Source: a virus. From it: a stretch of DNA of 26,611 nucleotides. How positions within the stretch are numbered: the stretch's first letter is position 1; every line of letters begins with the position of its first letter. Positions 533 through 26,499 of the stretch are shown here, one piece after another. The translations under genes and the position numbers were made by a program. The notes beneath the pieces were generated by a model that was not told where the DNA came from, did no database searches, and was given only the letters and a program-made list of their open reading frames with translations. Where the stretch lies: positions 1 through 26,611 of the IMG/VR virus record IMGVR_UViG_3300034418_007296; one strand, given 5' to 3'.

Positions 533-557
533 AAAAAACCCCCAACCTGGTGGGGGG
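533..557 (-). terminator. Second minus-strand intrinsic terminator
   Basis: On the minus strand a C-run (552-557) pairs with a G-run (539-543), extended by one A-T pair around a six-base loop, and is followed by six T (complement of 533-538). It lies just downstream of the stronger terminator at 560-585, making a tandem pair that ends the run of genes finishing with 614-892. Confidence 0.7.
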
Positions 558-559
558 AT

Positions 560-585
560 AAAAAAAACACCCTCCGAAGAGGGTG
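560..585 (-). terminator. Strong minus-strand intrinsic terminator with UUCG loop
   Basis: On the minus strand the sequence is CACCCTC-TTCG-GAGGGTG followed by eight T (complement of 560-567). The 7-base-pair stem, the very stable UUCG tetraloop and the perfect U-tract make this a textbook intrinsic terminator. It lies 28 bases after the stop of the HNH-like gene. Confidence 0.9.
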
Positions 586-613
586 CAAAACTAAAAAACG
601 AGGATGGGATTAG

Positions 614-982: not shown

Positions 983-1150
983 TTACTTCTTTTTACTTTT
1001 GTGTACCTTCTGAATACCAATCTTTTTTTGCTTGTCATATTGATTGTCTATATACTTTAATTTATATCTTCCGTCTTCCTGCTTCACCCACTTAAAACCT
1101 GCGGGTGCAGGTGCAAATTCAAAACTTATTCCTGGTCTATCAAAACCCAT
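983..1150 (-). CDS. Short unknown protein (55 aa)
   Basis: This short gene starts with ATG at 1150-1148, sharing one base with the stop of the upstream gene (TAATG), the same coupling used throughout this arm. The product begins MGFDRPGISF, has a Pro/Ala-rich stretch (residues 13-17), a KWV segment and a basic Lys-rich C-terminus. It has no cysteines or membrane segment, and I do not recognise a family. The overlap and sensible composition make it a likely real gene despite its size. Small basic proteins here could be minor virion components or nucleic-acid binders, but that is inference. Confidence 0.65.
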   Translation of the reverse strand: MGFDRPGISFEFAPAPAGFKWVKQEDGRYKLKYIDNQYDKQKKIGIQKVHKSKKK

Positions 1151-1467
1151 TACTTCTTTTTCCTTCCGCCACCTTTCAAGTCGTTGTCTTGAGAGTGGCC
1201 TCCTTTAATAAATGAATTAACTCTGCCCATAGCCCATTGGTGTGCAGTCATTCCTGGTCTACTACCGCTAGATGCATAGGCTCCTAATCCTCTCTGATAT
1301 ACCTTCTTCAGAGTGGATTTGGAAAACCTTGAGTTAGCTGCCTTTGTGGCAAGCTTGGAGTCTACAGAGGCTCCTCCTTTCTTTGACGTTTTACCGCCTT
1401 TCTTGTATTTTTGTATACCCATCCCACTACCATCAGCGTATTGACTTGTAAATGGTGACTTTCTCAT
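1150..1467 (-). CDS. Basic Gly/Lys-rich protein with DUF5824-like core (105 aa)
   Basis: The central and C-terminal part contains VYQRGLGAYASSGSRPG followed by T-A-x-x-W-A-x-x-R-V (about residues 56-83). This pattern recurs in small phage and large-DNA-virus proteins classed, from memory, as DUF5824; the function is unknown. The N-terminus (residues 3-17) reads SPFTSQYADGSGMG and closely matches a stretch of the post-capsid protein at 18169-18774, hinting at a common virion partner. Both ends are basic and glycine-rich, probably flexible. The start overlaps the upstream stop by four bases (ATGA) and the stop overlaps the next start by one. Confidence 0.75.
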   Translation of the reverse strand: MRKSPFTSQYADGSGMGIQKYKKGGKTSKKGGASVDSKLATKAANSRFSKSTLKKVYQRGLGAYASSGSRPGMTAHQWAMGRVNSFIKGGHSQDNDLKGGGRKKK

Positions 1468-1962: not shown

Positions 1963-2658
1963 TTAGAAATCCTTTACAATAGCTAAGAAAGCTGGATTAC
2001 CTCTATCATCCTTAAGTATAAACATATCACATTCGATAAGACCTGCGGCTCGAGCATCAGCTTCAGACTCATAAACAGGAAGAGATGAAATAATTTGACT
2101 TAACGTAATATATCCTCTTGGAATGTTGCAGTTTCTATAGAGAATGTCGTCTTTAGGCACAGCAACATCAAAATAAGGTATTTCTTTTGACTCTGCACCA
2201 ACTGCGCTACCAGCTGGGGCGGGAGAAGGTACAAAGCTTAAAGAAGCATCTCCTGCTGAATTTTTTAAGTAAGCATCACAAGCTTTCAAACCATCTCCAA
2301 CAGCTGCTTCAGCAGTATTATATACAGGAAGTCTTCCTAATACAGAAGATAATTTAACATATCCCCTTGGAAGAGGTCCGCATCCTTGCTTGATAACTTC
2401 TTCTTTAGGAAAAGAAATATCAAGAGAGTTTCCAGTAGCATTTGCACCTGAAGCTCTTGTAGTGTCTCCAACTACAGCAATTCTTCCTGACCACTGATAA
2501 ATATCACAGTCTCTTAATCCAGCTGCTTTTGCTGCTTCGTCTCCTGTATATGTAGGTAATTTTGAAATTACTGAAAGTAATTTTACATAACCTGCAGGCA
2601 CATCACAATTGTGCTTTACTAGGTGTTCTTTTTTGATTGATAAATCGTAACTAGGCAT
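1963..2658 (-). CDS. Three-repeat protein sharing its repeat motif with the fibre genes (231 aa)
   Basis: The protein consists of three tandem repeats at about residues 3-54, 78-130 and 162-213, joined by Gly/Ala/Ser-rich linkers. Each repeat has a strand (DLS, DIS, DVA), a Lys/Pro-Lys step, a Cys (18, 93, 177), P-x-GY followed by a Leu/Ser-containing helix, LP-x-Y, an Ala-rich helix with GL, and CD-x-Y/F (second Cys at 51, 127, 210). The two cysteines sit 33-34 residues apart in every repeat, suggesting a conserved structural pair. The first part of the repeat matches the N-termini of proteins at 23300 and, more distantly, 24361 and 26499. The Ala-rich GL-x-x-C/G-D-x-Y half resembles short domains seen in other phage proteins. 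A virion surface, adaptor or tail role is inferred from this kinship. Confidence 0.75.
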   Translation of the reverse strand: MPSYDLSIKKEHLVKHNCDVPAGYVKLLSVISKLPTYTGDEAAKAAGLRDCDIYQWSGRIAVVGDTTRASGANATGNSLDISFPKEEVIKQGCGPLPRGYVKLSSVLGRLPVYNTAEAAVGDGLKACDAYLKNSAGDASLSFVPSPAPAGSAVGAESKEIPYFDVAVPKDDILYRNCNIPRGYITLSQIISSLPVYESEADARAAGLIECDMFILKDDRGNPAFLAIVKDF

Positions 2659-2682: not shown

Positions 2683-3402
2683 TTAGTTATTCTCAGCTTC
2701 CCATTCAAGCTGTTCTTTTAATTCATTTAGTGCTTCGGTTAATCTTTCGCTTCCCTCAGCGTATTGTTCAAGGCTATCTGTCCATTTTGTGTTAAACCAT
2801 CCAAGTTTGACAGTAAACCCTTTCCCATTTGTACTTCCTCCCCCATCATCTTCTAATTCTTTACCATCATAGTAGAGTTTTTCTATAAACTCTCCAAAGT
2901 TTGTTTCTAGTATTCCAGCAGAGAGTTTTTTCTCATCGAACTCTTCTCCTTCCTCTAGTTCTAGAGTCCAAGTATTCAACCATCCCTTCTCTTCGCTCAT
3001 ACAAGCCACTACAGGCACGTAATCTTCTTTGCTGATGTCTTGGTGCAAATTATCCCAATCAGGCTCCTCCTCGTCAAAGAAACCGCCTTCTCGCCCCCAT
3101 AAGAACTGATGTTCTACTTCTCGTTCCTCATCAGTGTCTGTATCTACTAAAGTTACGGTTGAACTAGCGTGACTTCCGTAAAAATGTAGGATATCATCAA
3201 TATCATGCCAGTAGTGGTCTCCATTTTCTGTCATTTCAGGGATATCTTCGTTTTCATTGTCTTCCCAAGCATCTAGAATGTAATCAGCGAACTCTTCTTC
3301 GTCTGAACCCGCCCAATAATTATAGAATTCTTCTGTTACTCGTCCGATAGTAATCTCACCACCATAACGATACCCTATAATGTTATAAACTTTTTTACTC
3401 AT
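2683..3402 (-). CDS. Strongly acidic protein, unknown (239 aa)
   Basis: Asp and Glu far outnumber Lys and Arg across the whole length, with clusters such as SDEEEF (about residue 33), DNENEDIPE (48-56), DTDTDEERE (88-96) and ELEEGEEFDEKK (148-159). Tryptophans and tyrosines are also frequent, suggesting a folded rather than disordered protein. No membrane segment or known motif is visible. The start overlaps the holin-like gene by eight bases. Such composition occurs in DNA-mimic inhibitors and in proteins that handle basic partners, but this is only a possibility. A candidate internal promoter in the holin-like gene may express it separately. Confidence 0.75.
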   Translation of the reverse strand: MSKKVYNIIGYRYGGEITIGRVTEEFYNYWAGSDEEEFADYILDAWEDNENEDIPEMTENGDHYWHDIDDILHFYGSHASSTVTLVDTDTDEEREVEHQFLWGREGGFFDEEEPDWDNLHQDISKEDYVPVVACMSEEKGWLNTWTLELEEGEEFDEKKLSAGILETNFGEFIEKLYYDGKELEDDGGGSTNGKGFTVKLGWFNTKWTDSLEQYAEGSERLTEALNELKEQLEWEAENN

Positions 3403-3637
3403 GGTTTTGGTTTTTTCTTTTACTAAGTATTTCGGAAAACTTTTCCGATGCTGTGAATCCTAGTCCTGCCATGACTATCCATTGTAAGGATTCAAACATA
3501 TGTTGTTCTACGGTGTAATCACAAAACAAGTTTGATGTAAAAGCAATCAGCATAAAAAGCAGGCACATTGCTGTAACCACTCTTTTAGAGGATACTTCTC
3601 CTCCTTCTGAAAACATTGCTTTAAAAAACTTTCTCAT
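3395..3637 (-). CDS. Putative holin-like membrane protein (80 aa)
   Basis: A short amphipathic and polar N-terminus (residues 1-18, containing SEGGEVSSKR) is followed by a clear membrane helix (about 19-38, rich in Leu, Met, Phe and Ala) and a second, weaker hydrophobic segment (about 50-63) ending in GLGFTASEKF, then a basic tail. Length, two hydrophobic segments and charged tail fit a small phage holin, which would permeabilise the inner membrane at lysis. The pattern SSKR plus GLGFTA-x-EKF recurs in small membrane proteins of Bacteroidota phages, as I recall. No endolysin is visible in the window, so the lysis role is not confirmed. It is coupled to two tiny genes upstream. Confidence 0.6.
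   Translation of the reverse strand: MRKFFKAMFSEGGEVSSKRVVTAMCLLFMLIAFTSNLFCDYTVEQHMFESLQWIVMAGLGFTASEKFSEILSKRKNQNHE
3493..3525 (-). promoter_or_regulatory. Candidate internal promoter in the holin-like gene
   Basis: On the minus strand TTTG (complement of 3522-3525), a 21-base spacer and TATGTTTG (complement of 3493-3500) match the Bacteroidota consensus TTTG-N19-21-TAnnTTTG. It would start transcripts about 80-90 bases before the acidic protein at 2683-3402. It lies in coding sequence of A+T-rich DNA, so chance is possible. Confidence 0.3.
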
Positions 3638-9805: not shown

Positions 9806-10187
9806 TACTTTAGAACAACAGGAACAGTACTTCAAGAATACTATCAAGTATTCAGAAGAGATGTACGAAGAACTCACAAAGAGAGCCAACAAACTTTCTG
9901 ATGAGGACGAAGCAGAACGATACATAAAAGTAATGCTAATATCTTCAGCACAAGAATGTTTGTTTAAAATCAGAGAAGCTAACTCAGCTGCTAAACAAGT
10001 GTTTGGTAAAGACTTTGATGTCAATGAAGAACTAATCCCCCTAATAAACGAACTAAAGCCTGCTTTCTATTTTGAAGGAGACAAGCTTATGAATGTTTCA
10101 GGTATGGAATATAGTGAAATGATTGAATTTATTAGAGGTGCTGTAGCTGAAAGAAATACCAAGAATGCAGGAGGTAAGGATTCCTAA
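9795..10187 (+). CDS. Helical protein directly upstream of large terminase, candidate small terminase (130 aa)
   Basis: The protein is mostly helical and rather acidic. The first 55 residues contain Glu/Lys-rich helices typical of coiled coils (EQQEQYFKNTIKYSEEMYEE), followed by another helical region and a C-terminal helix (SEMIEFIRGAVAERN). Size, helical content and overlap with the large terminase by 23 bases fit a small terminase subunit, which recognises packaging sites and forms a ring. No helix-turn-helix is evident, so this is a positional guess. The winged-helix protein at 8227 is the rival candidate. Confidence 0.6.
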   Translation: MANNTLEQQEQYFKNTIKYSEEMYEELTKRANKLSDEDEAERYIKVMLISSAQECLFKIREANSAAKQVFGKDFDVNEELIPLINELKPAFYFEGDKLMNVSGMEYSEMIEFIRGAVAERNTKNAGGKDS

Positions 10188-12312
10188 AATAGCATATAGC
10201 TCTTTTCTTATCCATCAGGTGCTACCTGAGAGAGATGATGAAAATTATGTCTCATTTTGGATGAGGCATATAGGCTATTGTAAATCAGGTGTAGAAGTAG
10301 GAGGAGTTCACATTACAGGATGGCTATACTGGCACCTTAATTTTTTTAAGTTGTCTATAGATAAGCGTGATGAGTTTGGTAATTCTGTAAGAGTTGTAGA
10401 TAATCCTAATCTAAGAGATAACGAATGGCTTATAAATTGGTGCTATGAACAAGCTGATAAAAACGGTAAACAACCTATACTTGCATTTGGTACAAGACGA
10501 TTTGCTAAGACATCTTTTATTGCATCAAGAGTCGCATACAATACTTTTATTTTTCAGTATAGTAATCCTTTAATTATTGGAGGGTCACAGTCTGACCTTA
10601 ACAACATTACCAAGTATCTAGATGAGTTCTACGAGAAAAGACCTGATTGTTTTTCAGACTTTGTAAAGATTAGCGATTGGAACAAAGCAACATCTTCTGA
10701 TGTTGAGATAGAGTTTAACAAAAGAATTGTAACGAAAGGGAGAAACCCAATCAATCCAATTAGTTATGAATTCTTTCCTATAACTGATAAACCTAACGAT
10801 AACTCATTTGCTTTTTCAAGAATATCAGTTAGGAACCTTCAGCAGGGACAAGTTACTTCAAAAGAAGAATTACTTGCAGGTATCACACCTACCGAGGCTG
10901 TATGGGATGAGGTAGGAAAGTATTTGTATTCTAAACAACGTTCAGCACTTCTGCCTGCTATTGAAAATGACCTTGGCGAAAGAAGATTTGTTGAGCTATT
11001 GATTGGTACTGGAGGTAACACAGACTTTGCTGCAGATGCAGAAATGGATTTCTTGTTTACAGAAAAATCAGACTTTTTCCACTTTGATGTAAAAAAATAT
11101 TTAGAAGAAGTAAAAGATGAACATTTTCAATACGTTCAGGATACTGATAAACAAGTTAGTCTTTTTGTTCCTGCCCAGATGTCTAACAAGGGAGGCCAGA
11201 AGAAAAAAATACCTTTGGTACAATACCTCAACAGAAAGTTCAACGAGGAGGAACTTAAGGCACTTGAAGGGTTTGATATCTTTGTTACTGACTGGGAAGA
11301 GTCACAACAGAAAGTAGAAGGGTTTATAAACTCAGAACATAGGAAATCATCAGACAAAGGAAAGAAGGCACAGATGTACTATCCTTTCCAACCAGAAGAT
11401 TGTTTCTTGTTTTCAGGTAACAATCCTTTCCCTGTTGAAGAAGCTAAGAAAACACAAGACAGAATAAGGCTGGATGGGTTAACAGGAGAGTACGTAAGAC
11501 TTGAACAAACCCCACATGGCATAATAACAATCACCCAATCTGCCCTAGAACCCGTAACAGAATATCCTTTTAGAGGAGGAGCATACGATGCGCCTGTAGT
11601 TGTATATGAGAGACCTATATTTGATGACCCTAGACAAATCAAAAGAGGAACGTACATAGCAGGGTTTGACGGTGCAAAAGTTGCTACATCTACAACATCT
11701 GATTCTTTGAACTGTCTTTACATATTCAAAAGACAGGCTGGTGTTTCAGGATTTCAAAATCAAATAGTTGCACAGCTTACAGGTAGACCACACATGGATA
11801 CCATTTACTACAGACAAGCGATGCTGCTTCTTAAGTTATACAATGCAGAGTGCCTACCAGAGGCAGACGTTCCTTTTGTCAAGTATCTACGTAGCCAAAA
11901 AGCAGAACATTATATCGCACAAGCAAAAGGAACAAACCTTAGAATTAACGAGAATAGTAGGGCAAACGTTGATTATGGGTTACCAGCCACAGCTAGAAAC
12001 AAAGAACATCTTCTTAAATTATTGAAGACTTACTGTTGGGACCAAATACCCACAGGAGAAACTACCCAAGATGGTGATGAGGTAACAGTTCTAGGTGTGT
12101 CTAGGATAACAGACCCTATGCTGTTGGAAGAGATTATCAAGTTTGGTAACTACAAAAACTATGACCGAATAATGTCTTTTGGACATGCTCTTATATGGGA
12201 CGAAGAATTATCTATAAATAATATCAAAGGTTCTGAAGATAAGTATCAAGTCAAGAGAGATACTTTTTCTAAACTCACAGACAAGAATTTCGGTAGGGGT
12301 AGATACCGATAA
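10165..12312 (+). CDS. terL: Terminase large subunit (715 aa)
   Basis: This is the ATPase-nuclease motor that packages DNA into the prohead. Motifs seen are a Walker A variant GTRRFAKTS (109-117), Walker B AVWDE (245-249) and a coupling motif IGTGG (280-284). The likely RNase H-fold nuclease starts around AGFDGAK (Asp at about 501), with further acidic residues toward the C-terminus. The N-terminal GVHITGWLYWHLNFFKL (about 47-63) resembles the conserved opening of large terminases in crAss-like and related Bacteroidota phages. At 715 residues it is longer than T4-type enzymes. It overlaps the upstream helical gene by 23 bases and is followed by the portal after 61 bases containing a promoter. 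Confidence 0.92.
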   Translation: MQEVRIPKIAYSSFLIHQVLPERDDENYVSFWMRHIGYCKSGVEVGGVHITGWLYWHLNFFKLSIDKRDEFGNSVRVVDNPNLRDNEWLINWCYEQADKNGKQPILAFGTRRFAKTSFIASRVAYNTFIFQYSNPLIIGGSQSDLNNITKYLDEFYEKRPDCFSDFVKISDWNKATSSDVEIEFNKRIVTKGRNPINPISYEFFPITDKPNDNSFAFSRISVRNLQQGQVTSKEELLAGITPTEAVWDEVGKYLYSKQRSALLPAIENDLGERRFVELLIGTGGNTDFAADAEMDFLFTEKSDFFHFDVKKYLEEVKDEHFQYVQDTDKQVSLFVPAQMSNKGGQKKKIPLVQYLNRKFNEEELKALEGFDIFVTDWEESQQKVEGFINSEHRKSSDKGKKAQMYYPFQPEDCFLFSGNNPFPVEEAKKTQDRIRLDGLTGEYVRLEQTPHGIITITQSALEPVTEYPFRGGAYDAPVVVYERPIFDDPRQIKRGTYIAGFDGAKVATSTTSDSLNCLYIFKRQAGVSGFQNQIVAQLTGRPHMDTIYYRQAMLLLKLYNAECLPEADVPFVKYLRSQKAEHYIAQAKGTNLRINENSRANVDYGLPATARNKEHLLKLLKTYCWDQIPTGETTQDGDEVTVLGVSRITDPMLLEEIIKFGNYKNYDRIMSFGHALIWDEELSINNIKGSEDKYQVKRDTFSKLTDKNFGRGRYR

Positions 12313-12373: not shown

Positions 12374-15079
12374 ATGTTTTTCGACATAAATCTTAAAGAT
12401 GCACCATTTTTGGGGGATAGTCTAAGACTTCCTGCTCAGGCGTTACCTGACAAAAAGAAAACCAAAATATGGTTTAAGGACTGTATGGATACTCTAGAAA
12501 CTATAGGTATTCGACAGCTCAATGTCGCAAGACATAGATTTGAAGATGCTTATCGCATCGTAGAAGGAAGTTACTCATACAGTGCTGTAACTAATACTTC
12601 TGCATTTTTATCAGAGGTTGACATGTTAAGACAACAGTCAGACCTTCCCGAAGACTTACAACACTATGGCTTTATAGAACCTATAGTTAACACTCTTATA
12701 GGTGAGTATATTAAAAAGCCCAATCCTACCATAATCTACACTAACGACCCAACTTCTACGAATGAATACCTACGTGTGAAGAAAGACCTTTTATGGAAAA
12801 AGGTAGGAAAATCAATAGACACAGAAGTTAATTTGAAGCTATTGGCGATGGGAATGGACCCAATGGGTCAAAAGTTTGAAAGCGAGGAGCAGAAGCAGCA
12901 GTTCATGCAGCAACTTCAGCAAGAAAAACAAAAAAATATACCACAGGAAATACAAGATTATATGGATTCCGAATGGAAACCAATATACATAGAGTGGGCT
13001 GAACAACTTATTGAGGAGGGGGAGACAAGATTCCAAATGGATGAACTCTACAGAGAATTATTTAGAGATTACTTAATTACTGGTAGATGTTTTATGCACT
13101 GGAGAATAGGTCACGATTTCTATCAACCTGAAAGATGGTCACCTTTAAACACTTTTACATCAATTACTCAACAAGAAAAGTATCCTGAATTAGGCGAGTA
13201 TGTGGGTCGTATACAATATCTATCTCCCAACCAGGTAGTAGTGAATTATGGCCACATGATGACAGAAAGTCAAAAAAGAGACTTACTGAAATCAAAGCAC
13301 TATACTCAGTCTGAGGTTGCTGTGTCTGATAGTATAAAAGATACACAGTCTTGGTTAGAAAACTTTGGAGGTTATAATAAAAGAGTTTCTCATCCTAATT
13401 ACATTGCTTACGAAAATTTAGGTGTACTACAGGACCAAACTGGTATTGATTTTGGTTATAGAGGACACTTTCCTAATCAAGACCAAAATTTTAATTTGTT
13501 CTTTAACGATTACGAAAATCGTTATGACATGATTAGAGTTGTAGAAGCATATTGGGTATCCTACAAAAGAATAGGATTTCTTACAATGAAGAAAGGAGAT
13601 ACTCAGCAACTTGTAACAGAAATTGTAACAGACGAAATTTTAAAAGATATTATCAACGAGTATCAAATAAAGAGCCTAAGAACAGTTTCTCTAGAAGAAA
13701 ACCAAAAGAATCCAAAAGAGAATACTATTCTTTGGGACTACGTTCCTGAAGTTTGGAAAGGAGTTAAGATACTAAACGATAATACAGACCTACCAGAACA
13801 TTTATACCTCTACGGAGAACCTATGGAGTATCAATTAAGAGGAGAGAGCTCTTTATTTCATACTCTCCTGCCTGTTAATGGTCTATTCGAACACACATCT
13901 CTCGTTTCTAGAGTAGAGATAGACCAAATTGAATATTCTCTCGCTATGAATATGGCTAGAGACTATATGTCTAAGGAACTTGGATTGTTCTTCTTGATGG
14001 ACCTAGCATACATGCCTGAGTTCTTAAAAGACTTTGGAGGAGATGAAGCTATTGGTAAACTAATGGAAGTAACAAGAAACCTTGGCCTTCTTCCTGTGGA
14101 TTCGTCCCAAGCTAGAGGAACTGCCTTCAATAACTTCCAAATGGTCAACATGGACCTAACGGCAGCTATGATGGGTAAACTAAATTTTGCTCAAGCTATT
14201 AAAAATAGAGCGTTTGAAAAACTTGGTTTACACCCCCAAAGAATGGCGGGACAAGTTGAACAAACAACTGCTACAGGTATACAAGTAACTCAGGATGCAT
14301 CATACGCTCAAACAGAGGTTTGGTTTGATAAGTTTTCTAAATTTCATCAAAGGTCTGCTGAAATGCACATTAACGTTGCACAATGGCTACAACAACAAGG
14401 CAAAGATATTACGGTTAGCTACACTGATAGCGATAAAATACGTCACTTTGTTTCTATGATAGACCCTGAACTTCCGATTAGAAGATTTAAAATCTATACT
14501 CAAAATAATTCTAAGAGAAGAACTGAGTTAGAGACCTTACAGAAAACATTCTTTAGCGATAATACTATTTCTAAAACTTTAGAGGATATGGCTGAGGTAA
14601 TATCTGCTGACTCTACATCTAAAATCATACAAATAGCTAGATTGGGGAGAAAAAGAGCAGAACTTCAATCACAAATGCAACAAAAACAGCAGCAACAACA
14701 GCTGCAGATTGAAAAAGCAAATGAATTTGAACTTGAGCAGCTTAAACATCAGCACAAGATGGAATTAGAAAAGCTTAAAGGAGAGATTGCATTGAATAAA
14801 CAAACTATTTTGTCTTTAGGATTTGTAAAAGATGATGGACAAACTCCAGATGAAGAAGAAACACCTAAAGTTGTAGAGCAATTAGAAACTGCAACCAAAG
14901 ACCTTGACATGAGATTCAAGATGAGGCAAATGGAATTACAAAATAGGTTGAAAGAAACTCAAGAAAACAGACAATATCTCCTAAAACAGCAAGAATTAGC
15001 TCTTAAACAACAAGAAATAAACGCTAGAAAAGAGATAGCTGACAAGCAAATGCAAATAGCTAAGATAAATAAAAATTAA
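12374..15079 (+). CDS. Portal protein (901 aa)
   Basis: The size, position directly after the large terminase and before scaffold and capsid, and its domain order identify this as the dodecameric portal that forms the DNA entry vertex. The N-terminal two thirds are an alpha/beta region with many Trp/Tyr. Around residues 620-670 lie the helical AMMGKLNFAQAIKNRAFEKL and a TTATGIQVTQDASYAQTE segment typical of phage portals. From about residue 750 the protein is a long Gln/Glu/Lys-rich coiled coil (with MQQKQQQQQLQIEK), interrupted by an acidic loop near 825-845. Large portals with Q-rich tails are seen in crAss-like and other Bacteroidota podoviruses; in those families they may form the barrel or help eject DNA. 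Confidence 0.88.
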   Translation: MFFDINLKDAPFLGDSLRLPAQALPDKKKTKIWFKDCMDTLETIGIRQLNVARHRFEDAYRIVEGSYSYSAVTNTSAFLSEVDMLRQQSDLPEDLQHYGFIEPIVNTLIGEYIKKPNPTIIYTNDPTSTNEYLRVKKDLLWKKVGKSIDTEVNLKLLAMGMDPMGQKFESEEQKQQFMQQLQQEKQKNIPQEIQDYMDSEWKPIYIEWAEQLIEEGETRFQMDELYRELFRDYLITGRCFMHWRIGHDFYQPERWSPLNTFTSITQQEKYPELGEYVGRIQYLSPNQVVVNYGHMMTESQKRDLLKSKHYTQSEVAVSDSIKDTQSWLENFGGYNKRVSHPNYIAYENLGVLQDQTGIDFGYRGHFPNQDQNFNLFFNDYENRYDMIRVVEAYWVSYKRIGFLTMKKGDTQQLVTEIVTDEILKDIINEYQIKSLRTVSLEENQKNPKENTILWDYVPEVWKGVKILNDNTDLPEHLYLYGEPMEYQLRGESSLFHTLLPVNGLFEHTSLVSRVEIDQIEYSLAMNMARDYMSKELGLFFLMDLAYMPEFLKDFGGDEAIGKLMEVTRNLGLLPVDSSQARGTAFNNFQMVNMDLTAAMMGKLNFAQAIKNRAFEKLGLHPQRMAGQVEQTTATGIQVTQDASYAQTEVWFDKFSKFHQRSAEMHINVAQWLQQQGKDITVSYTDSDKIRHFVSMIDPELPIRRFKIYTQNNSKRRTELETLQKTFFSDNTISKTLEDMAEVISADSTSKIIQIARLGRKRAELQSQMQQKQQQQQLQIEKANEFELEQLKHQHKMELEKLKGEIALNKQTILSLGFVKDDGQTPDEEETPKVVEQLETATKDLDMRFKMRQMELQNRLKETQENRQYLLKQQELALKQQEINARKEIADKQMQIAKINKN

Positions 15080-15230: not shown

Positions 15231-16412
15231 ATGTCAGAAAAAGACCAACAAAATCCATTTACTATTGGGAACCCTTTCACTATACAATTAGAAGATAGTG
15301 AAGAAGATACACCGACAGCAGAAATGGAAGACATTTCTTCAGATGTTTTAGAAAAAAATATTGAAGAGGACAAAAAAGAAAGAGAATCTTTAGCAAAAAA
15401 TCCCAAACCTTCTACAGAAATGGAAATAGAAGGAGAAGAAGAGGAAGAAGCAGAGACTAAAGAAATTGAAATAGAAGATATCCTTGATAAGCCAGTTGCT
15501 TTCGATGATGAGGGGTCAAAGGAGTCTAAGAAAAAGGTAGATGAGGCATTATCTACAAACGATGCTTTCTTTGACTATCAATCCGCAGCAGAACAACTTA
15601 TAGCTACGGGGTTCTGGGAGGACTTTGAAGGCCGAGATGGGCTTGATATAGACAAAGATGTTTTTGAACAGTTATCTAAGCAACAAGACGAGTGGAAAAA
15701 ACAAAACATTGGAAGTTCTATCTACAATAGCCTACATCCAGCTGAAAGAGAGTATTTAGACTTTAAAAGGATGGGTGGAGATTTAGACACCTATTATCAG
15801 TCTAAAACTAAAGTTGACAGAGTTAATAATCTAGATTTAGACTCTGAACAAGGAAAGTTAAGTGCCATCTATACCTACTATAAAAACTTTGTAGGTTGGA
15901 ATGACGATAAAATAAATAAGTACATTGGAAAATTAGACTCCAACGACTTAGAAGAAGAAGCTGGTACAGCCGCAGCACATGTACAAGCACATGTTCAAAA
16001 ACAACATGCGCAGATGATGCAACAGCAACGGATACTAGCAGAAAAGAGGAACAATGCAATCTCCAACTATAAAAAGAATGTGAGAGGTGTCCTCAAAAAT
16101 CAGCAAGTCAACGATAGACAAGCTAGACAAGTAGTTAAGAGCTTGACTGACATTGACCCTAAGACTGGTTTTACTGCTGTAGACGAGGCGTATTTGTCAT
16201 TTAGAAATGACCCTGAACGTTCAGTTCTACTGTATAGATTTCTTTCAGACCCTGAGTCGTTTATCGATGAGGTTTCATCTGGTAAGCAACAAGAGGAAAG
16301 AAAGAAATTATTTTTTGAATTAAAGAAAAAAGGGAAGACTACTGAAAAGAAAGACTTCTCATTTAAGCCTACAAGGGATAAACAAACTCGTAATCCTTTT
16401 ACTAATAAATAA
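15231..16412 (+). CDS. Putative scaffolding protein (393 aa)
   Basis: The ATG at 15231 was chosen over an in-frame TTG at 15210, because the earlier codon lies inside the -7 promoter element. The N-terminal third is extremely acidic (Glu/Asp runs at about residues 20-85) and probably disordered. The middle is helical, and residues about 235-290 form a Gln/His/Ala/Lys-rich coiled coil. The C-terminus is basic. Such charge-polarised, helical proteins between portal and capsid genes are usually internal scaffolds that guide prohead assembly and are lost or cleaved. The tripeptide NPF occurs near both ends (NPFTIGNPFTI and RNPFTNK), an oddity that might be a binding motif. No protease domain is seen. 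Confidence 0.75.
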   Translation: MSEKDQQNPFTIGNPFTIQLEDSEEDTPTAEMEDISSDVLEKNIEEDKKERESLAKNPKPSTEMEIEGEEEEEAETKEIEIEDILDKPVAFDDEGSKESKKKVDEALSTNDAFFDYQSAAEQLIATGFWEDFEGRDGLDIDKDVFEQLSKQQDEWKKQNIGSSIYNSLHPAEREYLDFKRMGGDLDTYYQSKTKVDRVNNLDLDSEQGKLSAIYTYYKNFVGWNDDKINKYIGKLDSNDLEEEAGTAAAHVQAHVQKQHAQMMQQQRILAEKRNNAISNYKKNVRGVLKNQQVNDRQARQVVKSLTDIDPKTGFTAVDEAYLSFRNDPERSVLLYRFLSDPESFIDEVSSGKQQEERKKLFFELKKKGKTTEKKDFSFKPTRDKQTRNPFTNK

Positions 16413-18168: not shown

Positions 18169-18774
18169 ATGGCTAAAAAAAGAAAATATCAAAATTCAGG
18201 CTCAAGTTCAAACGCTGGTTCACGCTCGGGTTCACGTTCTAGTTCTAGCTCAAATGCTAGTGGTAACACTATGAACTTTTCAGGTGCTAACATTGGCTCT
18301 GGAATCATGGATAACTCAATTACAGATAATAGAGGCAGCGGAAAGCGTTCTCCTTTTAGTAACTATCAAGATGGAAGTGGCTTTGGAACTTCTAATATGC
18401 CTTCTAATATGCCTAGTTCCGCAGACTTGGATGCAGCAAGAAAAAGAACAACATCTAAGCCTGGTCGTGGAGGATTACTCCAGGATAAGCCTGGAAAGGG
18501 TAGATTAAAGGCTAAACCTAGAAAAGCGAAAATGCAGGATGCTACTAATAGACCTAAAGGCTTAATCATGCCTAGTGTTGAGGAACTAGCGAAGTCTCAA
18601 AAGAGTCCTAAAAAGATGAAAAAAACGCTTAAAAAAGCAACACCCCCTAAACCTAGGAATCAGGGTGCTCGTTTTGATTTAAATTCAAAAGGTCTTAAGA
18701 GGGGACGAAAAGGTCCTATCAGTGATAGACGAGCTAAAAAGTTGGATAGAAGAATCCGTAGAAACGCACTATAA
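18169..18774 (+). CDS. Ser/Gly-rich to basic virion-type protein, unknown (201 aa)
   Basis: The N-terminal 50 residues are a low-complexity Ser/Gly/Asn/Arg segment, followed by RSPFSNYQDGSGFG (about residues 64-77), which matches the start of the basic protein at 1150-1467. The second half is strongly basic (Lys/Arg clusters with Pro) and ends in RRAKKLDRRIRRNAL. There is no predicted globular domain. Low-complexity basic proteins next to capsid genes could be minor head components that contact DNA or the capsid interior, but I do not recognise the family. It is separated from the capsid gene by the hairpin. Confidence 0.68.
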   Translation: MAKKRKYQNSGSSSNAGSRSGSRSSSSSNASGNTMNFSGANIGSGIMDNSITDNRGSGKRSPFSNYQDGSGFGTSNMPSNMPSSADLDAARKRTTSKPGRGGLLQDKPGKGRLKAKPRKAKMQDATNRPKGLIMPSVEELAKSQKSPKKMKKTLKKATPPKPRNQGARFDLNSKGLKRGRKGPISDRRAKKLDRRIRRNAL

Positions 18775-18783
18775 TCTTCTGAT

Positions 18784-19098
18784 ATGAATTATAGAAGAAT
18801 GTATCAACAAGGAGGAAGACCAATGCCCCAAAGAGGGGCGGGTCAACCTGCTTCACCTGCTAAGGAAGTGTCTCCCCAAGAACTATTCAATAGATTAGTT
18901 GAAGAGTTAATGGCTCAAGGACTTTCAGAGGAAGAAGCTGTTGCTGAAGCTAATAAAGTAATGGCTAGTAAAGGAGGAGCAGTTCAAGCTAAAGACGGGG
19001 GTAAAATATCTAAAAGGAAAAAGAAAAAGAAATCTACCCCTAAATATAAAGATGGAGGCACCTTTGGTGTACAAGGAGGCAGGTCGCCTTTCTCCTAA
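18784..19098 (+). CDS. Small Gly/Lys-rich head-region protein (104 aa)
   Basis: The N-terminus is Arg/Gln/Gly/Pro-rich (MYQQGGRPMPQRGAGQ). Residues about 30-60 form a UBA-like short helical segment (SPQELFNRLVEELMAQGLSEEEAVAEANKVM). The C-terminus is Lys-rich and ends GVQGGRSPFS, with the same SPF tripeptide as two other proteins in the window. Function is unknown. Being between capsid and connector genes it is probably a virion component or assembly factor. It starts 9 bases after the preceding stop. Confidence 0.68.
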   Translation: MNYRRMYQQGGRPMPQRGAGQPASPAKEVSPQELFNRLVEELMAQGLSEEEAVAEANKVMASKGGAVQAKDGGKISKRKKKKKSTPKYKDGGTFGVQGGRSPFS

Positions 19099-23303: not shown

Positions 23304-24349
23304 GTTTATCTAAGTACACAGCGAGTACGCCCACATACGACTTCTCTATACCAAAGGAAAGAGTAATTAAACAAAATTGCAACATTCCTGTAGGGTATAA
23401 GAGACTTTCGTGTTATTTCGCAAATACTGCGGAAAATGGCGTTTATTTTAAAGTAGGACAAGAAGGTGCAAAGACTATTGCACTTGGAGGACCTTTAACA
23501 GAAGACACAATTGTAGGAAACACTGAAACTGACTTTTCTATCGCCATCAGTACAGGTGATGATAAGAAAGGAGGTGCAGGTTTTATAGCTATTGAGAAGT
23601 TAGATGATAATGGGAAACTGCCTCAAGGTTTTCCCCTTAGAGACTTCTTTACAATAACTGATGCTACCGCATTCCCAGGCACCCAAAAAGTAATTAATGA
23701 AGAAGGTGCAGTACTATATGTTTCTAAGTTTGAAAACGATTTAACTAGAGGACAGTTTGCAATAAAAACAGTCGGTCTAGACTCAGAAGGAACATTAAAC
23801 CTTCTAAATCCAGGTCAACCTGCTATTTATAGCACAGACATTACAACCTCCTATGAGAGTGATGCATATTCCTTTTTAGCTATTAACAACTTAGGAAATC
23901 CTGCTACTTTTGGTACGGCAGGAAAGGCTGGTATAATTGTAAGTGCAACTTCTGTAAGAGAGGATGCAGTCATAAATGTGCTGTCTAGAACTCAGGATGC
24001 TACCAAAAATGCAGTAACTACGGTGTCTGCCGAGGATTTTACCACGGATATAGGACATTCTTTAGTCCTGCAAGTAAATGCAGGGGTTAAAAACTTTAAC
24101 TATTCTAAAGTTGTACCAAGCACTAATACCACAACACCAGTCTATAGCTTTCCCACACCTAACACATCACCTGGAGCAAATCAAATGCTCATAACAGATA
24201 GTAACAGTGTACTTCAGTTTTCTGATATACAAGCTGTACTAGCCCTTGTACCTGCATATGTAGACAATGCTACTGCTGTTGGAGCAGGATTAGTTGTGGG
24301 TGATACCTATTATAACACAACTAGTACTACATATACTAGAGTAGTATAA
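23300..24349 (+). CDS. Fibre-region protein with shared IPK...C N-terminal module (349 aa)
   Basis: Residues 13-40 read YDFSIPKERVIKQNC, then NIPVGYKRLS, the same module as in the triple-repeat protein at 1963-2658 (for example SFPKEEVIKQGC). The rest is beta-rich with repeated Ala/Thr/Gly/Val patterns, has almost no cysteine beyond residues 27 and 38, and ends DNATAVGAGLVVGDTYYNTT, a GL-x-x-GD-x-Y end-motif. This end-motif is analogous to the GL-x-x-CD-Y half of the opposite-strand repeats. It is probably a tail fibre, spike or virion surface protein anchored by its N-terminus. Function is inferred. Confidence 0.7.
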   Translation: MSLSKYTASTPTYDFSIPKERVIKQNCNIPVGYKRLSCYFANTAENGVYFKVGQEGAKTIALGGPLTEDTIVGNTETDFSIAISTGDDKKGGAGFIAIEKLDDNGKLPQGFPLRDFFTITDATAFPGTQKVINEEGAVLYVSKFENDLTRGQFAIKTVGLDSEGTLNLLNPGQPAIYSTDITTSYESDAYSFLAINNLGNPATFGTAGKAGIIVSATSVREDAVINVLSRTQDATKNAVTTVSAEDFTTDIGHSLVLQVNAGVKNFNYSKVVPSTNTTTPVYSFPTPNTSPGANQMLITDSNSVLQFSDIQAVLALVPAYVDNATAVGAGLVVGDTYYNTTSTTYTRVV

Positions 24350-24360
24350 AATAAAATAAA

Positions 24361-25032
24361 ATGGCAAAAGAAGTATTAATACCAAAAAAATGGATATGGG
24401 ATGGAAGTTGTACTTATTCTACTAAGTATGAATTTCTTTCCAATTACTTTATAAAGCAACCAGCAACAGCTGGCACTGCAGGACAAGTTCTTGCACTTAA
24501 CTCTGATTTAGAGCCTGTATGGACAGACGAAGGAGAACTTCCTGCTCCAGGTACGGAAGGGCAAGTTTTGGCACTAAATGCTTCTTTAGAGCCTGTATGG
24601 CAAGATGACAAGACTACTACAATTTATCAAACATCAGATGTACCTAGTTCTTTTAACTATAAAGGAGATGTTTATATTCCAACCGCAACTGGTGTAACTT
24701 TAACTATAGGAAGTGTGCATTATTTAGCAGACAGTGGTGGTGATGATAGACTAGCTGTAGTAAATGATGTAACATCTGCAGCGCAAATGACTGCATTTGT
24801 AGGTATTGCATTTGATACAGATGATACACAAGGTGTTCTTATAAAAGGTATTATCAACTTGGGTTCTAACCCTGGAACTAGTATTGGTGAACCTCTTTAC
24901 TTAACTGGTTCAGGTGCATTATCTTCTACAGCACCATCTGGTGCAGGAGAATACGTAAGAGTGATGGGATATTATTTAGGGAATAACAAAGTATTCTTCA
25001 ATCCATCACAAGACTTTATATTATTATCATAA
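24361..25032 (+). CDS. Tail-fibre-like protein with IPK module and tandem GQVLALN repeats (223 aa)
   Basis: The N-terminus MAKEVLIPKKWIWDGSCTYS matches that of the gene at 26499 (IPKTWITDGTCTVS), so they are paralogues at this end. Residues about 34-80 contain two tandem copies of a unit with GTAGQVLALN or GTEGQVLALN followed by LEPVW-x-D, common in phage fibre proteins. The last 140 residues are beta-rich with a stretch VLIKGIINLGSNPG and a turn (GEPLYLTG), typical of a trimeric fibre body. It is probably a minor fibre or collar protein. Confidence 0.7.
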   Translation: MAKEVLIPKKWIWDGSCTYSTKYEFLSNYFIKQPATAGTAGQVLALNSDLEPVWTDEGELPAPGTEGQVLALNASLEPVWQDDKTTTIYQTSDVPSSFNYKGDVYIPTATGVTLTIGSVHYLADSGGDDRLAVVNDVTSAAQMTAFVGIAFDTDDTQGVLIKGIINLGSNPGTSIGEPLYLTGSGALSSTAPSGAGEYVRVMGYYLGNNKVFFNPSQDFILLS

Positions 25033-25324: not shown

Positions 25325-26215
25325 ATGCCTACCATAGACAAACTTAATGGAGTAACAGCTACTGATATATCATCAGTGGATAACCACAATGCATCTGCTA
25401 TTGCAAGCATTAATGGTCAAAGTTTAGTTACGTCTACGTTATTGTTAGATTTATATGGTGCTAATGTAGCTGCTGCTTACTCTTTACGTAAACTTAGAGC
25501 AGGATACACAGGTGCAGCAATAAGGGTTAGAGAATCCGTTTTTAATACTGAACAAGATATTGGATTTGATTCTAATGGTGATTTAGATGAAGCAGCATTA
25601 ACAGCTTTTACAAGTTATCCTGGAATGAATGGGCTCATAGTTAAATGGTATGACCAAAGTGGTAATGGTAATGATGCTGTTCAACTTAGCACAGGAAGTC
25701 AGCCACATATTGTATTAAATAATGTAATACAAAAACATAATGGTAAACCTGCTGTTGTCCAGGATACAACCCTAGGTAATCCAAGTAATCAGTTTTTAGA
25801 TACTCCTACAATTAGTGCAGTGCATAACTTTATTGTATTCTACCAACCTGCCGCAGGTGGTGGTCGAGCATATTACGCTGAATCAGCCACTAAAAAAGTA
25901 TCACACGATGGATTTAGGATTGACTACGAGGATGGAGTAAACCCACGCATAGATGGGGTTGCTAATATTAGAACTGATTACGTATTAAGTGAGGTAAAGT
26001 CCTTGAGTGGTACAGTCACAAGTATAATTAATGGGTCAACAGATGCAAGTGGCACGGCAAATGTACTGCAAGTTGAAGCACTTATGGGTAATCCAACATC
26101 AGGAGGCGGTGCAATTGTAAAAATGCAAGAGATGATATTTTTTAGTGCAGACAAGTCTTCTGATGCAACAGCTATATCTACAGATATTAACACATACTAT
26201 TCAATTTATCCATAA
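25325..26215 (+). CDS. Tail protein with arabinofuranosidase-B-type lectin-like fold (296 aa)
   Basis: The N-terminal 40 residues (KLNGVTATDISSVDN, then IASINGQS) are a short motif seen at the start of phage tail proteins. Residues about 50-120 contain LRKLRAGYTGAAIRVR, then EQDIGFDSNGDLDEAALTAF, and VKWYDQSGNGNDAVQ. This sequence series marks the alpha-L-arabinofuranosidase B catalytic-like (concanavalin-type) domain known in fungal enzymes and many phage tail proteins. The following part is a beta sandwich ending in a DAT-rich C-terminus. The family can bind or cleave glycans. In phages the usual role is receptor recognition. I cannot confirm the catalytic residues. Confidence 0.78.
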   Translation: MPTIDKLNGVTATDISSVDNHNASAIASINGQSLVTSTLLLDLYGANVAAAYSLRKLRAGYTGAAIRVRESVFNTEQDIGFDSNGDLDEAALTAFTSYPGMNGLIVKWYDQSGNGNDAVQLSTGSQPHIVLNNVIQKHNGKPAVVQDTTLGNPSNQFLDTPTISAVHNFIVFYQPAAGGGRAYYAESATKKVSHDGFRIDYEDGVNPRIDGVANIRTDYVLSEVKSLSGTVTSIINGSTDASGTANVLQVEALMGNPTSGGGAIVKMQEMIFFSADKSSDATAISTDINTYYSIYP

Positions 26216-26499
26216 TGCATTTATATTATCCATTTCCTGACGAAGCATCTGTTATTACAGCAAGTGAAGACATTTATGATTTGAATGCTCCCCCAAGAGA
26301 TGAGCGTACAACCTTATATGCTTTTGATTGGTTTCCTAACTCAGGCAACCCAACCTATGTTCTTGCATGGAATGATGAGCCACAGACATTTGATACAGGA
26401 GATGTATTAGATGGTATCACTGCTCTTACAGAACAGGAAGCTATTGATGCTGGTTATGAGATAGATGATGAGCACAGTGGTATGAGGAACTTAGAATAA
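26215..26499 (+). CDS. Acidic small protein in fibre cluster (94 aa)
   Basis: The ATG shares one base with the upstream stop and the stop shares one with the next start (both TAATG). The protein is acidic, with aromatic-rich MHLYYPFPD, a DWFPNSG turn, a hydrophobic VLAWND stretch, and the C-terminal DGITALTEQEAIDAGY, similar to short helices next to tail-fibre domains. It may be a fibre chaperone, since such proteins are often encoded directly after fibre genes, but no chaperone family is recognised. Confidence 0.6.
   Translation: MHLYYPFPDEASVITASEDIYDLNAPPRDERTTLYAFDWFPNSGNPTYVLAWNDEPQTFDTGDVLDGITALTEQEAIDAGYEIDDEHSGMRNLE

Follow-up and report, generated by a model that had tools for sequence, protein, structure and literature searches.

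A single-chain triple repeat of fibre-end sequences outside the structural arm of a crAss-like phage, a candidate adaptor or cap for a fibre socket

Introduction

Why would a phage encode, far from its fibre genes and on the opposite strand, a protein that repeats parts of a fibre-like protein three times? The question is raised by one gene in a linear virus record of 26.6 kb, IMGVR_UViG_3300034418_007296, the whole of which (positions 1-26,611) was analysed and is called the window here. The initial annotation of this DNA proposed that the gene reuses a fibre-gene module and that its product may be a mimic, an adaptor or an extra virion surface protein. We followed this up by comparison with related viral contigs, profile searches and structure prediction.

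The window has two arms. Leftward genes extend from ~8.0 kb down to 0.6 kb, with RecA-, PhoH- and exonuclease-like genes coming first, and rightward genes extend from 8.2 kb up and include the terminase, portal, capsid and fibre genes. The triple-module gene lies near the end of the leftward run, outside the structural arm. The terminase and MCP are ~30% identical over >90% of their length to those of Cellulophaga phages phi17:2 and phi4:1 and of the gut phage csAssE-Sib, and because of these matches the phage can be classed as crAss-like (Crassvirales and relatives). Window genes also match PHROG terminase, portal and virion families, and the homologous terminase, portal and capsid proteins by which crAss-like phages are recognised are all present. 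Downstream of the fibre cluster in contig L005, positions 9988-10786, 14169-14867 and 15332-15901 hold matches to R2 (crAss001 gp40), R1 (gp43) and the tail hub THA (gp38); the R2 ring-protein match has an E value of 1e-4, and the R1 and THA matches are weak and collinear with the crAss001 order.

Results

The predicted reading frame with three repeats of ~70 aa was found, and the paired Cys are spaced by 33, 34 and 33 residues (Table 1). The repeats scored 114-137 when aligned with one another (BLOSUM62), the means of shuffled sequences being 22-23 (z 21.6-30.9), and each repeat scored 76-90 against the N-terminus of the 23300 protein (z 12.7-17.8); in both comparisons 0/300 shuffles reached the observed score. 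The pattern said to be common to the repeats and the 23300 gene, and its distance of about 20 kb (20.6 kb to 23300), were borne out, except that the literal IPK is relaxed to IKK, FPK and VPK in the repeats. Each module has a docking half, D-x-x-[IFV]-[PK]-[KQ]-E/D ... C-x-[IVL]-P-x-G-Y-[VI]-x-[LF], and an end half, L-P-x-Y ... A-x-x-x-G-L-x-x-C-D-x-Y, and both Cys are kept in 38/38 distinct modules. Since modules R1, R2 and R3 form one clade each, the triplication evidently predates the window's phage group. No informative family in Pfam, PHROG or NCBIfam covers the protein, the one hit being weak and to an unknown PHROG, and the Rfam library had no relevant match; a PDB sequence search with the module profile gave chance matches only, and tblastn of the modules against annotated phages gave no credible match.

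Table 1. Coordinates of the features discussed (positions in the window unless a contig is named)
Feature	Position	Strand	Remarks
Two terminator-like hairpins	539..586	-	close the leftward gene run
Triple-module protein, 231 aa	1963..2658	-	ORF and repeat analysis
Module R3, residues 159-231	1966..2184	-	Cys177 and Cys210
Module R2, residues 77-143	2230..2430	-	Cys93 and Cys127
Module R1, residues 1-66	2461..2658	-	Cys18 and Cys51
Conserved neighbour, 239 aa	2683..3402	-	24 bp upstream of the triple-module gene
Fibre-like protein, 349 aa	23300..24349	+	module split between both ends
Docking half, N-terminus of 23300 protein	23330..23413	+	~residues 11-38
End half, C-terminus of 23300 protein	24230..24346	+	residues 311-349; Gly replaces second Cys
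Fibre-region protein	24361..25032	+	possible degenerate N-terminal docking half; hhalign probability 4-67
Receptor-binding-type protein	25325..26215	+	
Complete module fused to 25325-type domain, in a relative	L052 7986-9170		
[RK]SPF-tag protein	1150-1467	-	
[RK]SPF-tag protein	18169-18774	+	
[RK]SPF-tag protein	18784-19098	+	
[RK]SPF-tag protein	L043 9957-10412		
[RK]SPF-tag protein	L048 10149-11492		
[RK]SPF-tag protein	L053 3619-3888		

When the N-halves of the repeats were compared with the 23300 family profile to profile (hhalign), the probability was 98.6 and the E value 7.5e-16, and the docking half at the 23300 N-terminus was recovered at an iE of 6e-9. The second half of the repeat lies at the other end of the 23300 protein, the C-terminus, which the initial annotation had missed; four records gave per-genome E values of 1e-5 to 2e-4 for it. 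With the docking half at one end of the 23300 protein and the end half at the other, the module is best described as both ends of that protein joined without the shaft, a putative "mini-fibre". More distant phages have the end half by itself and without the Cys, at or close to the C-terminal ends of large fibre-like proteins and of smaller ones (per-genome E 1e-4 to 7e-3). The C-terminal LPxY...AxxxGLxxGDxY motif of fibre-like proteins from distant crAss-like phages and from Leptolyngbya phage Lbo-JY46 matches this second half, whereas the triple-module protein has an invariant Cys in place of the Gly and joins the motif directly to a docking half. Docking halves were also considered in the 24361 and 184-aa families; the signal is weak (hhalign probability 4-67) and we do not claim homology. 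Two fibre-region proteins (window 24361-24450; L005 8055-8150) start with IPKxW...C...KY..L, which resembles the docking half weakly.

In related contigs the slot after an 805-aa structural gene is occupied by a 23300-type protein, a stand-alone module of 67 aa, both of these, or a 278-aa protein with a complete module at its start; these alternative cassettes all start with the docking half. A 395-aa protein in record G002 combines a complete module with a domain that is a homologue of the 25325-26215 product in the window (E 3e-18). The same N-terminal piece is found on unlike C-terminal parts with broken synteny, as in an N-terminal anchor.

AlphaFold, given an alignment of 12 relatives, modelled the triple-module protein with a mean pLDDT of 82.8 and a pTM of 0.81, each module having a predicted beta-beta-beta-alpha-alpha-beta-beta fold. 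Since the pTM is high for three short modules, the model implies that they are packed in a defined arrangement, around what we infer to be a pseudo-threefold axis. A fold search of this model in the PDB and viral models found nothing significant, and the 23300 protein was modelled at a pLDDT of 30 only.

The triple-module gene lies beside the 239-aa neighbour in 12/12 related records holding that neighbour, being cut by the contig end in two of them. Its dN/dS is 0.21-0.40, and it is under purifying selection. Between the window and G005 or G006 the upstream DNA is mostly 86-98% identical over ~1.6 kb, and 94-100% in the last 300 bp; at the start codon identity drops to ~40-80% within the triple-module gene. 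The triple-module proteins of these genomes are 49-54% identical to that of the window, against 97-100% for RecA, PhoH and MCP, and the G005 protein shares 88-90% identity with its counterparts in G002 and G003, which are more distant genomes. The window and G004 have an 83% identical allele, and here identity rises at the same start codon. Ranked by divergence from G005, the triple-module gene is the most divergent of the leftward arm and keeps company with the fibre genes. It has evidently been exchanged as a unit, with the break at its start codon, as fibre genes are.

The alleles may follow the type of receptor-binding protein. Allele A (window and G004) occurs with the 25325-type and allele B (G005, G002, G003 and G006, the last assigned from an 81-aa fragment) with a 467-type receptor-binding protein; G002 has a module-fused 25325-like domain besides its 467-type. 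The association is suggestive, with a one-sided exact value of 1/15 (~0.067) for six genomes, ancestry uncorrected. The 25325-type domain is widespread in viral contigs (268 stretches). Additional contigs with either receptor-binding domain have no module, and the allele-receptor sample stays at n=6. We also observed that each type has its own small partner gene, the 25325-type a 26215-type gene and the 467-type an 88-aa gene (window 25325-26499), which may be fibre chaperones. An apparently unrelated phage group (L111, L113 and L114) carries the 25325-type or the 467-type behind one common, different N-terminus, partner genes included, as would be expected of a receptor-binding cassette.

Discussion

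The reading we tentatively prefer, as a good possibility short of a probable one, is that the triple-module protein is a virion adaptor or cap that fills a fibre socket with three shaftless fibre-end copies, as part of the adsorption apparatus. Of the roles first proposed, an adaptor or extra virion surface protein built from a fibre module receives indirect support from the homology to both fibre ends, the single and fused copies in the fibre operons of relatives, the fibre-like cassette exchange and the suggestive receptor-type link, while nothing in the analysis supports a mimic, a controlled ratio to the fibres or a different expression programme. The N-half, being at the extreme N-terminus of otherwise unlike fibre-region proteins, would dock into a virion socket. 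Fibres are normally trimers, and a chain that carries three modules may therefore occupy a trimeric socket by itself, as a single-chain pseudo-trimer; this fits the confident module arrangement of the AlphaFold model. An adaptor or cap in such a socket would have to suit whichever receptor-binding protein the phage uses, and this would account for alleles that are swapped like fibre genes. We favour a role in adsorption over a housekeeping role, given that the gene is exchanged as a cassette and may be linked to receptor-binding type. The picture in full, an opposite-arm, single-chain pseudo-trimer of a docking-plus-end module that serves as an exchangeable adaptor or cap in a trimeric socket, with alleles travelling with a receptor-binding type >20 kb away, is doubtful as a whole. 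It should be considered that the gene lies outside the structural arm and that the short contigs of phages sharing a receptor-binding domain but having a different backbone contain no module, both of which count against an adaptor or cap.

Known systems offer partial precedents. The first 26 residues of the trimeric tail fibre of crAss001 anchor it in the tail-collar hub, and the head fibres of that phage, trimeric and dimeric, are held in pockets of the capsid by N-terminal domains (PMC10172136). The head fibres (gp21 and gp29) and the tail fibre gp22, by its N-terminus, parallel the proposed docking of the module in that small N-terminal parts sit in sockets, trimeric or dimeric, of a crAss-like virion with a disulfide-stabilised collar (PMC10172136), but they have no sequence similarity to the module and no three-in-one chain has been described. 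Homology of the docking half to gp21, gp22 or gp29 is unsupported, the module profile having no match in the crAss001 genome and the sequences having been read directly, and a 9-residue match to the tail-hub protein gp38 is due to chance. Klebsiella and coli phages are known to use common N-terminal anchors, short docking peptides and separate adapter proteins (PMC6872550). The adapter- and anchor-branched receptor-binding systems of K1-5, G7C and Klebsiella phages share with the present case a conserved N-terminal piece on unlike receptor-binding proteins and synteny broken at the fibre genes, and their adapters carry receptor-binding proteins (PMC6872550). They differ in that here no T4gp10-like or other known adapter family is involved (Pfam, PHROG, NCBIfam and PDB fold searches of the triple-module protein found no T4gp10-like domain) and in that the N-terminal piece is fused to a fibre-end motif, triplicated in one chain and placed on the opposite arm. 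In our reading the triple-module protein would work like an adaptor without belonging, by the searches made, to the T4gp10-like or crAss001 head-fibre families.

The protein could instead be a short surface decoration in its own right, for instance a mini-fibre of the head or tail with affinity for surface sugars, its alleles serving different ligands. Homologues of the small crAss001 head fibres, which dock by their N-termini, are absent from most crassvirus groups, which may use uncharacterised proteins instead (PMC10172136), and such a role would suit both the allelic exchange and the occurrence of the end half alone at the C-termini of other phages' fibre-like proteins. Yet the triple-module protein has no recognisable ligand-binding domain, and the recurrence of the module fused to receptor-binding-type domains suggests a part for attachment and not for recognition, and we regard decoration as unlikely.

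Roles outside the finished virion are less probable still. The protein might be a chaperone of fibre assembly, keeping fibre ends in place or in register while they fold and then being absent from the virion. Its composition from both ends of the fibre protein would suit such a chaperone; fibre chaperones are often matched to fibre type, with which the suggestive link to receptor-binding type would agree. The 26215-type and 88-aa partner genes are better candidates for that task, however, since they accompany each receptor-binding protein even in unrelated phages, and a chaperone is improbable here. Action in the infected cell, for example competition for fibre sockets or exclusion of other phages, with alleles recognising self, would account for single-gene exchange between near-identical flanks and for a location outside the structural arm. 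Against this, the gene is present in every relative covering the locus, neither a signal peptide nor a membrane segment is evident from its sequence, and a defence library gave no match; we consider it very improbable.

Should the adaptor or cap reading be right, a phage is able to derive a matched adaptor from a triplication of both its fibre ends, encode it away from the structural operon and swap it along with its receptor-binding proteins. This would give a likely role to a conserved family without annotation, and the possible receptor-type linkage would be a handle on how crAss-like phages change receptors in nature.

The initial annotation also suggested expression under a different programme from that of the fibres. 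The gene belongs to a leftward run closed by the hairpins, and a tag of the structural arm recurs in its downstream neighbours; late expression is therefore at least as plausible as a separate programme. Promoter content was uninformative, with 7 sites of the Bacteroidota-type consensus against 4.4 expected. The tag, [RK]SPF and often then G-x-GI, lies near the ends of Lys-rich proteins of both arms and is present in full in 11 proteins against 0.05 expected from shuffles. It is perhaps a common packaging or maturation signal and, if anything, points to the leftward-arm neighbours being virion-related. The leftward run also encodes, immediately ahead of the 239-aa gene, an 80-aa protein (window 3395-3637, minus strand) that has no family match, is 92-99% conserved and contains two hydrophobic segments, a size and layout that are holin-like.
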